Part shown: positions 19,430-38,600 of the stretch, one piece after another
Numbering within the stretch: the stretch's first letter is position 1
Layout of the letters: the number at the start of each line of letters is the position of its first letter
Origin: Robiginitomaculum antarcticum DSM 21748
GTDB taxonomy: Bacteria; Pseudomonadota; Alphaproteobacteria; Caulobacterales; Maricaulaceae
Direction of reading: 5' to 3'
Assembly (NCBI RefSeq): GCF_000365025.1
Contig: NZ_KB823011.1
Coordinates: forward strand, 1,012,621-1,076,620
DNA: 64,000 bases
The notes under the pieces: generated by a model
Database searches by the model: none
The model's input: the letters and a program-made list of their open reading frames with translations, nothing else
Told to the model about the DNA's origin: nothing
Program-made: the position numbers and the translations under genes

Positions 19430-19590
19430 TTTACGTCCTACTTAACCCAATGATAAGCTGAAATGCGTTTAAGTGCCGATCATTGGCGTTACAATATTTA
19501 TCCAGATACGGCTTTTAAATCAACCTGGTCCGGCACTCACATATCCATGTAAATAATCACGGCATTTCGCCCGTACCGTAATAATGAAGT

Positions 19591-19970
19591 GAATCAACGG
19601 GCCTATAAGCCGGGTTCTGTACTCTTTGAAAAGAGCAGCGATCATTCATCTGGCCCCGACTTTACAGACGGGGTCTAGCATTCAACCCGGGCAGAGGATG
19701 TGACCCCTATAGCTGCCCCTATTTGAATTTGCTCCGGATGGGGTTTGCCATGCCATCTGTGTTGCCACAGATGCGGTGCGCTCTTACCGCACCCTTTCAC
19801 CTTTTCCATACCCGCGCCGAAGCGCCGGCAGGTAGTTTACTTTCTGTGGCACTTTCCCTTGAAGATTAGCTTTCGCCAATCAACCGCCGGGCGTTACCCG
19901 GCATCCTGTCACAATGGAGCCCGGACTTTCCTCGACATTTGCATGCCGCGACCGCCCAGCCCGTTGATTC
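19591..19970 (-). ncRNA. rnpB: RNase P RNA, bacterial type A
   Basis: Catalytic RNA that trims tRNA 5' ends. Read on the minus strand, the 5' part carries the universal GAGGAAAGTCCGGGCTCC segment (around 19916-19934) and the 3' part carries AACCCGGCTTATAGGCCC (around 19599-19616). The two ends, 19959-19970 and 19591-19602, are complementary and form helix P1, which sets the boundaries to within a few bases. Length about 380 nt is normal. The gene is divergent from the HxlR regulator. Confidence 0.95.
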
Positions 19971-33387: not shown

Positions 33388-34935
33388 CTACAAATCGCTC
33401 CACTGTGTTTGGTAAAGATCAAAGCGCCGGTCGCGCAGATTGCGAACTGTGCCATTGGCCCGTGCCCAAGATAGATCGGTGAGGTCCAGATCAGCAATGG
33501 CGACGGTTTCCACATTTTCGCTACATTCGGCGGCAATGCCGTCACGCGCAAAGGGGAAATCGCACGGCGTCAGGATGCAGCTCTCGGCGTAATTAACGTC
33601 CATATTCTCCACGCCCGGAAGGTTGCCGACATTTCCCGACAAGACCACATAGCACTGGTTTTCAATCGCGCGGGCCTGTGAGCAATAACGCACACGCAGA
33701 TAGCCTTGACGGTTATCCGTACAGAACGGCACGAATAAAATACGCGCGCCCTCGTCTGCCATACGGCGGGCCAGTTCCGGAAACTCGCTGTCGTAACAGA
33801 TCAGCACGCCAATCGGGCCGCAATCCGTATCAATTGTTGAAACTTCGTCGCCGCCTTTGATATTCCAGTAATGCCGCTCATTGGGCGTCGGATGGATTTT
33901 CTCCTGCGCGTGGACAGAGCCGTCACGCAGGAATACATAAGCGATATTTTGGACATCACCGTCATCGGTACGTGTTGGGTGAGACCCGCCAATAATATTG
34001 GTATTATAACTGACGGCCAGCTTGCGCATGGCTTCGATGAAGACGGGAGTATATTCGGTTAGTTTTTCAATTGAATCCGATGGCGACAAGCGGGTTTCGG
34101 CAAGCGCCAAAAGCGGCAATGTAAACAGTTCAGGAAAAACCACGAAGTCGGATTTATAAGCCGTTACGCTGTCGACGAAATATTCAATACTGCTCATGAA
34201 ATCTTCAAAGCTTGTCACCTTGCGCATTTGAAGCTGCACAGTCGCGACGCGGATAACGTCTTTTTGCGCGGCTTCGCTATGCACGCTTTTGCGAACTTCG
34301 GGAGCGTAAGCGTTGCGCCACATCATCTGCGCTGCAAAACCGCCGGATTCTTTGTCGACGGGCAAGTAATTTTCTAAAATCGCAAAAGGCTCAAAGCCCT
34401 GACGGTATTGAAAATTAACGACAGGGTCAGAGACTTTTTTATCTTTAACCGCGAGCAAATAATCCATCGGATCAGGATAGGCTTTCTTGCGCTTGGCCCA
34501 GCCCGGCATACGTCCGCCAAAGACGATGCCTTTCAGCTCCAGACTTTCAACCAGCGCCTTACGGGCATCATAAAGCCGCTCGCCAATACGCAGTCGGCGG
34601 CGCGCGGGATCGACGCAGATTTCCATGCCGTAGAGCCACTCGCCATTAGGATTATGCGACGAGCCATACCCGCCGCCGGTTATACCCGCCCAATTATGCG
34701 GGGCGAGCGCAACATCTTCGCGCAACATGATACTGGCTGCGTAGCCGACGATCTCGCCCTCATATTCGACGACAAATTGACCCTCGGCGAAGTTGGAAAT
34801 TTGCCCCTTTAGCATGGGCACGGGATATGTGCCCATAACCGGATAGGCGCGGTCAACAAGGGCCGCAATAGCGCGCACATCTTTGGACGTGGCGGTGCGA
34901 ATAGTCAGCTGCGCGGTGACGCGTTTTTGTGCCAT
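33388..34935 (-). CDS. Bifunctional GNAT acetyltransferase / carbon-nitrogen hydrolase
   Basis: 515 residues in two domains. Residues about 10-190 are a GNAT acetyltransferase (ARRRLRIGERLYDARKAL around 111-128 as the acetyl-CoA loop region). Residues about 227-500 are a nitrilase-superfamily amidase with an intact Glu-Lys-Cys triad: Glu269 in VFPELFT, Lys346 in EKIHPTPNE, Cys380 in ICYDSEFPE. Last gene of a polyamine operon, 22 bases after the agmatinase-like gene, so a polyamine or N-carbamoylputrescine-like substrate is plausible but unproven. The fusion itself occurs in other proteobacteria. Confidence 0.88.
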   Translation of the reverse strand: MAQKRVTAQLTIRTATSKDVRAIAALVDRAYPVMGTYPVPMLKGQISNFAEGQFVVEYEGEIVGYAASIMLREDVALAPHNWAGITGGGYGSSHNPNGEWLYGMEICVDPARRRLRIGERLYDARKALVESLELKGIVFGGRMPGWAKRKKAYPDPMDYLLAVKDKKVSDPVVNFQYRQGFEPFAILENYLPVDKESGGFAAQMMWRNAYAPEVRKSVHSEAAQKDVIRVATVQLQMRKVTSFEDFMSSIEYFVDSVTAYKSDFVVFPELFTLPLLALAETRLSPSDSIEKLTEYTPVFIEAMRKLAVSYNTNIIGGSHPTRTDDGDVQNIAYVFLRDGSVHAQEKIHPTPNERHYWNIKGGDEVSTIDTDCGPIGVLICYDSEFPELARRMADEGARILFVPFCTDNRQGYLRVRYCSQARAIENQCYVVLSGNVGNLPGVENMDVNYAESCILTPCDFPFARDGIAAECSENVETVAIADLDLTDLSWARANGTVRNLRDRRFDLYQTQWSDL

Positions 34936-34957: not shown

Positions 34958-35860
34958 TTAGGCGCGGCCAAGGGTGTAATTTAAAATTTTATAGGCCAGT
35001 TTTGCCGCCAGAAAGTCGGGGCCGTGCAGACCGTCAATAGGCGCCAACTCATTAATGTCCGCGCCGACAATCGTGCCCACTTCTGAGGCGCGTTTGATGA
35101 TCGCCATGGCGTCAGGCCAAAACACACCGCCCGGCTCCGGCGTTCCGGTGGACGGCATAACGGAGCTGTCAAATCCGTCGAGATCAAAGGTCAGATAGAT
35201 CCGGCGACCTTTGAGCGGGGTAACGATCTGCTCCACATCCCAGTTTTTGATATCCTTACCCCAATGGATTGTGATGCGGTGTTTATTGGCTTCGTAGAAC
35301 GGAATTTCCTCTTTGGAAATATTGCGAATGCCGCATGATATGATCGGCACGGTCGGGTGATCAAGGACGCGCCGCATTGCAGCGGCATGGGAGAAATGCT
35401 CTCCGTCATAGCCGTCACGCAAATCGGCATGGGCATCAAAATGCAGGATGATCAGATCATCATATTTAGCCAGAAACGGACGGATTGCGCCGGGCGTGAT
35501 GGAATGTTCTCCTCCAAAGACAAGCGGGAACTTGCCGTCATTTAGCACAGCGCCCGTCAGCGCGGCCAGACCGTCCAAAGCCGCCGGGATATCCGACGGA
35601 TCAATCTTAGGCTCCGTCAGCGTCACAAGCCCGTAGCGGTCAATCGGTTCGTCCCACAGATCCTCGTCAAACAGCTCGACCTCGTGACTGGCGGCAATCA
35701 TCGCCGCAGGACCGTCTTTCGTCCCGCCGCCATAGGAAACTGAGGCTTCTAGGCCAAATGGAATGATGACAGCTCCGGCATCAGCGTAGCTGATGGCCTT
35801 ATCGTCTTGCAGCGCCAAAAAGGCGCTGCTTGCGGGCATTAACGGACGGGGAGATTGCAT
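34958..35860 (-). CDS. speB: Agmatinase-like ureohydrolase
   Basis: 300-residue member of the arginase/agmatinase family, releasing urea from a guanidino group. The binuclear Mn site is complete: GGEHS near residue 117, HFDAHADLRD near 140, and FDLDGFDSSVMPSTGTPEPGG near 224. The strict substrate may be agmatine or a guanidino-polyamine: it starts two bases after the deoxyhypusine-synthase-like gene, and that pairing is the one expected for making homospermidine from agmatine through a bis-guanidino intermediate. Context makes simple putrescine production less certain, because a type III PLP decarboxylase is also in the operon. Confidence 0.9.
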   Translation of the reverse strand: MQSPRPLMPASSAFLALQDDKAISYADAGAVIIPFGLEASVSYGGGTKDGPAAMIAASHEVELFDEDLWDEPIDRYGLVTLTEPKIDPSDIPAALDGLAALTGAVLNDGKFPLVFGGEHSITPGAIRPFLAKYDDLIILHFDAHADLRDGYDGEHFSHAAAMRRVLDHPTVPIISCGIRNISKEEIPFYEANKHRITIHWGKDIKNWDVEQIVTPLKGRRIYLTFDLDGFDSSVMPSTGTPEPGGVFWPDAMAIIKRASEVGTIVGADINELAPIDGLHGPDFLAAKLAYKILNYTLGRA

Positions 35861-35862
35861 GA

Positions 35863-36897
35863 CTATTTCTCAAATAATTTTGAGAAGTTGCGGCGTGGAC
35901 GGTTTTTCCAATCACAACTATGATAGGCGTCAGACGCCAAAAGCGGAATGACAGAGCCGGCTTCGGCAAAAACCATTTGTTCCTGCGTGGTCTGCACTTT
36001 GCCCCAACTTGCCGCTTCTTTGAGCGTGGAGCTTGAACACGCACCGTCGCGCACATCAGCCACACTAATCTGCACGGCATATTTGTGCATTTCCGCTTCG
36101 ACGCCGAGGATTTCCGCGCAAACAACCGTGTCTTGCACAAAGTTCTTAGGCACGCCGCCGCCGACCATTAACAGGCCCGTTGAGCCGGCTTTGATCTTCA
36201 CATCAGTCAGCTCGCGGAAGTCTGCCACAGAATCGATAGACAGATAATTGCCCGGGTTTTCGACCTGATGTTTAACAAGGCCGAAACCGGCTGAGCAATC
36301 AGAGAATGCGGGTACAAAGATCGGCACATTATGGTCATAGCAGGTCTCGACAAGGCTGCCTTTTTTAACGGCATTGGTTTTCAGCCATTTGCCCATTTCC
36401 CAGATGAATTCACGCGATGAATAGGGACGGCGCTCCAGGCTGTCTGTGATGTCTTTAATGACATGATCACAGGACTGCAGCTCTTCTTCGTCAATATAGG
36501 TGTCGTAAATCCGGTCAATATAAAGACCGCGCAGGACGTTATCATCGACCTCACTATCGGCTTGATAATGCTTGTATCCAAGCGCTTCGAAGAAATCCAT
36601 ATCAACGATCGACGCGCCTGTTGAGACGATCGCGTCAACCATGCCGTATTTTACAAGGTCGCGGTAAACATGCATGCAGCCGCCGGCAGAGGTCGACCCC
36701 GCCAATGTCAGAATGACGGAGCACTCTTTATCATCAACGGCTTGTTTAAAAATGTCTGTCGCGCGCGCGAGGTCGCGTGAAGAAAATGACATTTTGCTCA
36801 TCGCCTCTATAATCGGGCGGGCGTCAATTTTTGTGATATCGACATGCTCGACAGGATTGCTGAGCAGCTGGGCTTTGGTGTTTTTAGTCATGGTCAT
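35863..36897 (-). CDS. Deoxyhypusine-synthase-like polyamine synthase
   Basis: 344 residues of the deoxyhypusine synthase family (NAD-dependent aminobutyl transfer). The imine-forming Lys is present: Lys300 in ASWGK, equivalent to Lys329 of the human enzyme. Other family landmarks are LAGSTSAGG near 66, DAIVSTGAS near 88, and GGGVPKN at 246-252; at the position of the human active-site His288 this protein has Asn252. Bacteria have no hypusinated eIF5A, so a free polyamine acceptor is expected; homospermidine or 1,9-bis(guanidino)-5-aza-nonane synthesis is the best guess. Start may be ATG 36897 or 36891 (the latter better spaced from AGGA). Confidence 0.85.
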   Translation of the reverse strand: MTMTKNTKAQLLSNPVEHVDITKIDARPIIEAMSKMSFSSRDLARATDIFKQAVDDKECSVILTLAGSTSAGGCMHVYRDLVKYGMVDAIVSTGASIVDMDFFEALGYKHYQADSEVDDNVLRGLYIDRIYDTYIDEEELQSCDHVIKDITDSLERRPYSSREFIWEMGKWLKTNAVKKGSLVETCYDHNVPIFVPAFSDCSAGFGLVKHQVENPGNYLSIDSVADFRELTDVKIKAGSTGLLMVGGGVPKNFVQDTVVCAEILGVEAEMHKYAVQISVADVRDGACSSSTLKEAASWGKVQTTQEQMVFAEAGSVIPLLASDAYHSCDWKNRPRRNFSKLFEK

Positions 36898-36909: not shown

Positions 36910-38109
36910 TTAAAGAGTTTCGTCGGTAATGACGACGGTGTGGGTTGAATAAAACCCGTTAAATTGTGTGGCCAAAGTCTGGCCGTATGCGCCCAGGTTT
37001 TGAATTTCGATCCAGTCCCCTTCGCAGGCGTCTGACGGCAATGGGAACGGGCCGTTCATCGTGTCCGCACTATCGCATGTCGGGCCGAAAAAGCGAAACC
37101 CGGTTAGAAATTGCGACGGCGCAGGCGGGCGGCGGCGATGCAGCGTGACCGGAAACTTCCACGCAAATTGCCCTGCGTCAAACAATGATCCATATGTCCC
37201 GTCATTAAGATAGAGATCATGGCCTTTGCGCAGTTCAATGCGCGCGAGTGTAGCGCCGCCTTCGGCGCATAAAGCGCGGCCCGGCTCGCCAATAATCTCA
37301 ACGGCGCCGAACTCGTTGGCGATGAGTGAGCTGCGGATTGCATCGAAATATTCGTCCATAGGGCGGACGGGCATATCTGGATAAGCGACAGGAAAGCCGC
37401 CGCCTATATCGACGCTGTCAATATCGACGCCGGACGCGTCTACGATAGTGCGGCCATAGCTGATCGCGCGGTCATAGGCGCCGGGCGACAAGCACTGCGA
37501 GCCGACATGAAAGCAAATGCCGAGGCTTTTTACGCGCGGGCGGGCGGATTTTAACAGCGCCACTGCAGCGTCAAACTCTGCGCCAAATTTCCCTGATAAA
37601 GGCATGACGGCTCCGCCGGACGGTAGCGACAAACGCAGGTGCAGGTTTAGGTCGCCCGCCTCGCCTGTGCAGTCATAGATCTTTTGCAGCTCGTCTTCAT
37701 GGTCAAATGAAAAATCGCGAATGCCCAGACTGTAAGCGCGCGCGATTGTAGCGCGCGATTTGATCGGGTGCATCAGATACATTTTCGCACCCGGGAACAG
37801 ACCGCTTACCAATTCCATCTCGCGAATAGAGGCAACGTCGAATGTATCAACGCCTTCTTCCCATAATATTTTTAGCATTTCGGGATGCGGGTTTGACTTA
37901 ACTGCAAACAAAATTCGGCCCGGAAAGCGACCGACAAAACGGCGCGCAGCAGCTTTGATCTTCGATGGATAAAGCGCGTAAATATGGTCATCACCCGAAT
38001 AGGCAGCAATCGCGTCTGCCGCTGTGGAAAATGCAGGCAGCGCGGGAGCTTCAGTATGGACAGGCGCAAAAGGCTGCAGTGCAGCCGGCATAAGATTTGA
38101 ATTGAACAT
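36910..38109 (-). CDS. Type III PLP-dependent decarboxylase (ornithine decarboxylase-like)
   Basis: 399 residues, alanine-racemase-like barrel plus beta domain. PLP Lys71 in FAVKSNPHP, the His of GICFHVGSQ near 198, the phosphate loop GGGFPVAYP and GEPGRAL near 275, and the intersubunit active-site Cys in GPTCDSADTM near 343 all match ornithine/lysine decarboxylases of this fold. It would supply putrescine (or cadaverine). First gene of the polyamine operon, 12 bases ahead of the deoxyhypusine-synthase-like gene, preceded by a long structured leader. No clear ribosome site precedes ATG 38109. Confidence 0.9.
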   Translation of the reverse strand: MFNSNLMPAALQPFAPVHTEAPALPAFSTAADAIAAYSGDDHIYALYPSKIKAAARRFVGRFPGRILFAVKSNPHPEMLKILWEEGVDTFDVASIREMELVSGLFPGAKMYLMHPIKSRATIARAYSLGIRDFSFDHEDELQKIYDCTGEAGDLNLHLRLSLPSGGAVMPLSGKFGAEFDAAVALLKSARPRVKSLGICFHVGSQCLSPGAYDRAISYGRTIVDASGVDIDSVDIGGGFPVAYPDMPVRPMDEYFDAIRSSLIANEFGAVEIIGEPGRALCAEGGATLARIELRKGHDLYLNDGTYGSLFDAGQFAWKFPVTLHRRRPPAPSQFLTGFRFFGPTCDSADTMNGPFPLPSDACEGDWIEIQNLGAYGQTLATQFNGFYSTHTVVITDETL

Positions 38110-38156
38110 TATCGGACTTACAAGAAAAACGCTAATATGCGTAAAGCTCTGGAAAA

Positions 38157-38194
38157 CCGGTTATCTCGGGAGCGCCGCAGCGCTATTAAACCGG
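38157..38194 (-). terminator. Terminator-like attenuator hairpin ahead of the decarboxylase gene
   Basis: Minus-strand stem CCGGTT (38194-38189) with AACCGG (38162-38157), enclosing a second stem AGCGC/GCGCT (38184-38180 with 38175-38171, loop TGCG), followed directly by TTTT. The stop codon of the 24-codon small frame (38163-38161) overlaps the 3' arm, so a ribosome held there would prevent folding. Confidence 0.45.
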
Positions 38195-38235
38195 AAGGCG
38201 AATTTCAGGCGGGACTTAAAGGGCCCGCTTCGCAC
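38161..38235 (-). CDS. Possible 24-residue leader peptide
   Basis: GTG-initiated frame with GGCGGA about 8 bases upstream, ending in TAA inside the terminator-like hairpin. The peptide is basic and aromatic, with LKFAFRFN near residues 10-17. In E. coli the leader peptide SpeFL senses ornithine by stalling near its stop codon and switches on ornithine decarboxylase; this frame is in the corresponding place but its sequence is not demonstrably homologous. Too short to be supported by coding statistics. Confidence 0.3.
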   Translation of the reverse strand: MRSGPFKSRLKFAFRFNSAAALPR

Positions 38236-38356
38236 TACTGAGTTCCGCCACAGCGACCAGATATTCTTGATGTTTAGACGACAGGAACATGTCTCCTACC
38301 TGCGCTTGCAGGGAGATAAGAGCGCTTTTGCGGCTATTATGCAGGGCTTTACCCAT
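38216..38356 (-). CDS. Possible 46-residue small protein or upstream ORF
   Basis: ATG at 38356 with GAGAG 8 bases upstream; 46 codons to TAA. The composition (HNSRKSALISLQAQVGDMF, then SKHQEYLVAVAELSSAKRAL) is that of a plausible helical peptide rather than random translation. Its last 20 bases overlap the start of the 24-codon frame, so the two could be translationally coupled in the operon leader. Not recognised as a known protein. Confidence 0.35.
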   Translation of the reverse strand: MGKALHNSRKSALISLQAQVGDMFLSSKHQEYLVAVAELSSAKRAL

Positions 38357-38465
38357 AGCAATAACTCTCAATTTCCAAACGTCGTCTGACGTAACAAAAC
38401 CAAGACGTTACCGGCGGCTATTCGATGAAGAGTTAGCTTCATCATGGCTGACAGATTCCCCATGC

Positions 38466-38483
38466 AAAACCCTCAAATAAGGG
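38466..38483 (-). terminator. Weak Rho-independent terminator after uvrB
   Basis: On the minus strand CCCT pairs with AGGG across a short loop and is followed by TTTT. The stem is only 4-5 bp, so efficiency is doubtful. It lies about 120 bases past the uvrB stop and before the polyamine leader. Confidence 0.4.
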
Positions 38484-38600
38484 CGTGTTCAGGGCTCGCT
38501 GTAGCTCGCTTTATCGTCGAAAATGGATATATTCATTGCCTGCAAAATCTGCAAGAGCTTTGTTGAAGAAAAATGCAGGTGAAACATCATATTTAGCATC

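Follow-up and report, generated by a model that had tools for sequence, protein, structure and literature searches.

A structured leader RNA and a conserved leader peptide ahead of a predicted agmatine-based polyamine operon in Robiginitomaculum antarcticum

The speF RNA of alphaproteobacteria was described in 2005 as an orphan element, and its conservation starts near the transcription start, an arrangement also predicted for the leader described here; tests of ornithine, lysine, diaminopimelate, putrescine, cadaverine and spermidine were negative (PMC1273637). In the speF leader of Salmonella, for which no intrinsic terminator could be identified, Rho termination is averted when orf34 is translated; expression depends on translation of this short ORF (PMC6386406). 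The stretch of 64,000 nucleotides analysed here (the window) carries on its minus strand a leader for which an initial annotation had proposed a speF-type, ornithine-sensing arrangement with two nested small frames and two hairpins, A and B. These frames and hairpins are present, and comparison upholds the view of a regulatory leader upstream of a polyamine operon, in which one of the small frames is real and conserved. The strongest feature of the leader, a structured RNA at its 5´ end, was missed by that annotation. Both the RNA and the leader peptide that follows it are well supported by comparison with related sequences. The coordinates of all features are summarized in Table 1.

The operon and its relation to speF leaders

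Homospermidine is an important polyamine in alphaproteobacteria, and its control is, to our knowledge, little understood. The operon starts with a decarboxylase whose nearest solved chains are lysine/ornithine decarboxylases. Its second enzyme couples two agmatines into a homospermidine precursor (PMC10981699), and the gene order therefore suggests a route from arginine through agmatine to homospermidine, with arginine as the putative substrate of the decarboxylase.

Loci for comparison were fetched with the decarboxylase as query from 99 relatives and one public genome collection, in which Hellea, Algimonas and an uncultured Hyphomonadaceae bacterium are the closest named relatives. The leaders of the relatives keep a block from GACGA(U/A)AAAGCGAGCUACAGCGAGCCC, the 46-codon frame and hairpin A; uvrB was not found upstream of the homologous leader in the nearest relatives. 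In relatives, a CTTG(C/A)-type hexamer precedes the GACGA block by the same spacing. Since the distance from the promoter-like hexamers to GACGA is almost constant in the leaders compared, the RNA start is expected at about 38519.

This placement resembles that of speF RNA, with a COG0019-type decarboxylase (PF02784/PF00278) downstream and a promoter-like spacing that is kept in relatives. The covariance model RF00518 (gathering score 37 bits), however, has no match in the window (E up to 10), in the whole genome or in 11 relatives, so that the proposed speF motif is not borne out. The same model, run over 240 genomes of the class, finds speF RNA in 13, only in other lineages, where it precedes a distant decarboxylase (about 32–36% identical); no conserved small frame was seen in those leaders. 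The suggestion of a SpeFL-like ornithine sensor fares no better, because E. coli SpeFL and the 46-residue peptide do not align at E up to 100, and the operon, for its part, seems to be built around agmatine and arginine.

In all of L036–L043, the Rfam sRNA ar45 (RF02347) precedes the speF match by about 10 nt on the same strand; from this constant adjacency, ar45 seems to be the 5´ portion of the speF leader rather than an sRNA in its own right. Paralogous decarboxylases of other genera (45–48% identical) carry a different conserved element just before the decarboxylase, approximately CCGGCGGACC[hairpin]..CTAACGCCGGYCTGGGTT ahead of the start, which by eye forms a pseudoknot and in some genomes comprises two tandem units (L011, L012, L014, L016–L019, L022, L024 and L026–L028; those loci that were scanned gave no Rfam match at E up to 2). 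Other leaders (L015, L020, L021, L025 and L030; position 861 of the extracted leader) share a conserved frame of 12 codons, MPDWVNxxQGVT, preceded by a good Shine-Dalgarno (SD) sequence, and its TGA overlaps a GTG that may start the decarboxylase.

Table 1. Features of the leader and the operon, with positions counted within the window.
Feature	Position	Strand	Sequence detail or basis
Promoter-like site	38526..38554	-	TTGCAG (38554-38549), 17 nt, TATATC (38531-38526); predicted start ~38519
Structured leader RNA: predicted three-way junction (P0, P1-P2 arm, P3 arm) and P4	38354..38518	-	model R1, 162 bits
P1-P2 arm	38445..38509	-	GCG.A.GCTACAG / CTGTC.AGC, CCC/GGG, variable hairpin; folds, covariation
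P3 variable hairpin	38424..38443	-	compensatory changes at 5/5 pairs
Conserved joining strand AATAGCCGCC	38413..38422	-	CGC can pair with GCG 38509-38507 (P0), closing the junction
P4, CGTCTTGGTTTT / GGAAATTGAGAG, burying the SD of the 46-codon frame	38365..38407	-	folds; same arrangement in sister family
46-codon ATG leader ORF, MGKALHNSRKSALISLQAQVGDMFLSSKHQEYLVAVAELSSAKRAL	38216..38356	-	conserved in 15 leaders
Hairpin A, around the leader-ORF stop codon	38209..38228	-	GCGGG..CCCGC; recurrence in relatives
24-codon GTG frame	38235-38161	-	overlaps 46-codon frame
Hairpin B	38194-38157	-	CCGGTT..AACCGG; TTTT next; 3´ arm overlaps TAA of 24-codon frame
PLP-dependent decarboxylase (Orn/Arg/DAP type), first gene of operon	36910..38109	-	PF02784, PF00278
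Operon gene after the decarboxylase	35863..36897	-	NF002699, 571 bits (cut-off 500)
Agmatinase-family ureohydrolase	34958..35860	-	TIGR01230, 198 bits (cut-off 174)
GNAT-nitrilase fusion, last gene of the run	33388..34935	-	PF00583, PF00795

The predicted three-way junction of the leader RNA

The individual folds of eight leaders mostly agree, and a covariance model built from six of them (R1) found more leaders, both within that family and in a second one of the order. Outside the model-building genomes, R1 matches score 145 (L056), 125 (L057), 122 (L058), 97 (L033) and 62 bits (L065), followed by weaker ones of 57 (L066), 48 (L067), 41 (L032) and 38 bits (L061). All of these precede the same decarboxylase, except that of L057, where the contig ends just after the decarboxylase start. 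Matches below about 20 bits (L062–L064 and L068–L071) lie away from the decarboxylase and were taken as chance. Every credible homologue found stands before the same decarboxylase and is accompanied by the same kind of peptide.

The structure was assessed in a 15-sequence alignment fitted to the model, which favours the structure. In this alignment 91% of the cells are paired, the covariation score is 0.261 versus 0.140, and 20 pairs are double-changed, compared with 10.2 ± 1.8 in shuffled and 4 to 10 in slid controls; none of 500 shuffles reaches 20. Replacing the outer P1 pairs by a GCG/CGC closure raises the paired share to 92.7%, with P1 98% and P3 98.3% paired and all five P3 pairs double-changed. 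P0 is paired in 15 of 15 sequences without variation and, because it never varies, receives no support from covariation. Alternatively, GCGAGCUA could pair with UAGCCGC, which would preclude part of P1; this helix shows one compensatory change, and from the sequence alone it is indistinguishable from P0 as the one that closes the junction. The unpaired junction blocks CGAG/AAAU and AAUAG are near-invariant within this covarying scaffold.

An Rfam scan of the window and the relatives returned only RNase P and chance matches; the bacterial class A RNase P RNA of the window lies at 19590-19967 on the minus strand.

P4, the leader peptide and a sister form

P4 comes directly after the junction. 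In it, CGUCUUGGUUUU pairs with GGAAUUGAGAG, which bears the SD of the 46-codon frame (GAGAG, 38369-38365), and the end of the stem adjoins the start codon of the frame. The SD lies within P4 in nearly all sequences. The pairing strands of P4 hardly vary, so its conservation is partly a sequence constraint. A stem this long and nearly invariant could be a static RNA clamp or a 5´ stabilising structure that keeps expression low without a metabolite signal; however, a simple clamp would need neither the conserved junction nor the peptide, which makes this reading quite improbable.

Comparison of 15 leaders shows that the 46-codon frame encodes a true leader peptide, conserved in its C-terminal half. 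The median dN/dS is 0.24 in the C-terminal half (around AQLGDTFLSSKHQDYLAAIAEFSSEVRA) and 0.64 in the N-terminal half, and the differences at codon positions 1:2:3 amount to 444:543:911, a third-position excess that indicates codon-level constraint. A variable N-terminal half combined with a constrained C-terminal half is typical of nascent-chain regulators. The peptide has no match in Pfam or NCBIfam.

The stop codon of the frame lies in, or at most 12 nt from, a GCGGGC..GCCCGC-type hairpin in 44 of 45 leaders. Hairpin A taken singly is matched by 13% of shuffles, and its weight comes from this recurrence in related sequences. It lacks a U run and does not represent an intrinsic terminator. 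In some relatives the 3´ side of hairpin A can be paired by eye with UUCGG near the decarboxylase start, a pairing that is absent in others.

The codon-level constraint, which spans about 25 residues, would also be expected if the 46-residue product were a working small protein, one that binds an operon enzyme for example, with P4 serving as ordinary translation control. We regard this as unlikely, since conservation is found only in the C-terminal half and is fixed beside the stop-codon hairpin, and since all the cases examined have the frame as a leader in front of this decarboxylase.

The nested architecture of the initial annotation survives in part. Alignment of the two small frames with those of relatives upholds the 46-codon frame and leaves the 24-codon frame without a counterpart in any relative examined; the same GTG soon meets a stop codon in relatives, and the peptide matches only itself. 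The 24-codon leader peptide was therefore rejected. The two hairpins divide in the same way: hairpin A, which sits within the 24-codon frame, recurs at the leader-ORF stop, whereas the sequence of hairpin B is found in no relative examined, and its proposed role as a conserved terminator or antiterminator was abandoned. Judged from this one sequence, the frames and hairpins would not be conspicuous, and the fold of the whole leader has only a modest advantage over shuffles (z = -1.75). Once relatives are compared, the 46-codon frame and hairpin A stand far beyond chance, and the 24-codon frame and hairpin B do not. A terminator scan of the leader gave nothing above chance, the terminator-like sites that relatives have ahead of the decarboxylase, after the small frame, are sporadic and mutually unrelated, and the conserved G+C hairpin with a U run before the gene that marks an intrinsic-terminator attenuator was not found. 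It is thus very improbable that hairpin B is an intrinsic terminator opened by a ribosome on the 24-codon frame of a speF RNA: the hairpin with its TTTT and the overlapping frames do exist in the window, yet both frame and hairpin are unconserved and RF00518 has no match.

Most of a set of 29 loci for the decarboxylase came from one genus, which belongs to another family of the same order. The leaders of this sister form share AGCGA(G/A)C(U/C)AC at the same place and fold differently; across 23 distinct leaders, the 34 predicted pairs are 97.7% paired and nine are double-changed. The sister form also buries the SD of its small frame, by pairing of CCAACUGUCUUC with GAGGAUACUUGG directly before the AUG. 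The sister small frames end in DYMAAVAELIRP or similar, and those of L095 and L096 have the ending (S)DFLSxKHKDYLAxVAELIRQ, a bridge from one peptide type to the other. The two RNA forms probably share a common origin. Neither form matches Rfam 15. An exact-pattern search of 385 genomes of the class returned no sister RNA, a result to be read with the strictness of the pattern and a perhaps unsampled carrier genus in mind.

Two leaders matched by R1, L067 and L032, lack parts of the fold. The L067 leader (L067:1501-1632) has the conserved P4 and the peptide together with a reduced and different junction that lacks GGGAAAUCUGUC, and it may stand midway from one RNA form to the other.

A covarying structured domain coupled to P4, a stem that hides a ribosome-binding site (RBS), gives the leader the anatomy of a translational riboswitch, with putative binding of a small molecule. 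The leader could be a riboswitch proper, in which the junction would recognise one of the pathway's small molecules (arginine, agmatine, the bis-guanidino intermediate or homospermidine) and the peptide would only report this, linking translation to the operon with no arrest involved. The near-invariant unpaired blocks of the covarying junction, next to an RBS-hiding stem, speak for such a mechanism. However, the constraint on the C-terminal residues of the peptide exceeds the need of a mere read-out, and the sister family combines a different junction with the same peptide logic; we consider this reading possible but doubtful.

A two-step model and comparison with known systems

We favour, with moderate confidence, a two-step cis-acting leader that controls an operon for homospermidine derived from arginine via agmatine. 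Comparison of the leaders shows the RNA structure, sequestration of the SD, conservation of the peptide, the stop hairpin and the constant link to the operon; the signal or ligand, ribosome arrest, Rho termination and the direction of control are inferred. In the first step, RNA from about 38519 would fold into the three-way junction stacked on P4, which would hide the SD of the peptide. A signal that stabilises or opens this fold, whether a pathway metabolite, a polyamine or a protein, would set how frequently the peptide is translated. In the second step, a ribosome that has passed through the conserved C-terminal half would stop at the stop codon or stall near it. The terminating or stalled ribosome would hold hairpin A open and cover the RNA, allowing transcription or translation to continue into the decarboxylase about 100 nt downstream. 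The simplest route would be a block to Rho, as by orf34 translation in the Salmonella speF leader. Rho would fit because there is no conserved terminator and the stretch after the small frame is richer in C than in G in most relatives; the excess of C fails in some (L033 and L010), so that a Rho site is only plausible. By this two-step model, the leader RNA probably sets how much polyamine the cell makes.

A more specific version can be offered tentatively, although we think it somewhat unlikely: a riboswitch class absent from Rfam, responding to a metabolite of the agmatine-to-homospermidine route, would act on an arrest peptide and not on the start of the enzyme, placing two serial sensors in one leader that occurs in at least three families of the order and in two divergent forms. 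If the RNA binds one metabolite and the peptide senses another, this would be a rare riboswitch-like domain that gates a leader peptide. We found no description of this leader in the open-access literature, which is weak evidence as to subscription papers.

Translational riboswitches likewise place a conserved junction next to a stem that sequesters an SD. In contrast to these, the site sequestered here is that of the leader peptide and not that of the enzyme, and the ligand is putative. TnaC/ErmC-type attenuators resemble this leader in having a small frame that is conserved in its C-terminal half and ends at an RNA structure; here, however, a separate RNA domain gates the SD, and no conserved terminator lies downstream. 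The speF RNA (RF00518, with ar45, RF02347) is also alphaproteobacterial and also has a COG0019-type decarboxylase downstream, but the present leader has no match to its covariance model, the decarboxylase differs, and no conserved small frame was seen in the RF00518 leaders. By analogy, the closest worked-out case is the speF leader of Salmonella and E. coli (orf34/SpeFL), which shares with the present one a long leader without an intrinsic terminator, a polyamine decarboxylase operon and a short ORF with a conserved domain. It differs in that the peptide here is dissimilar to SpeFL, a junction RNA buries the SD of the small frame, and the operon has a different type of decarboxylase and an agmatine-based pathway.
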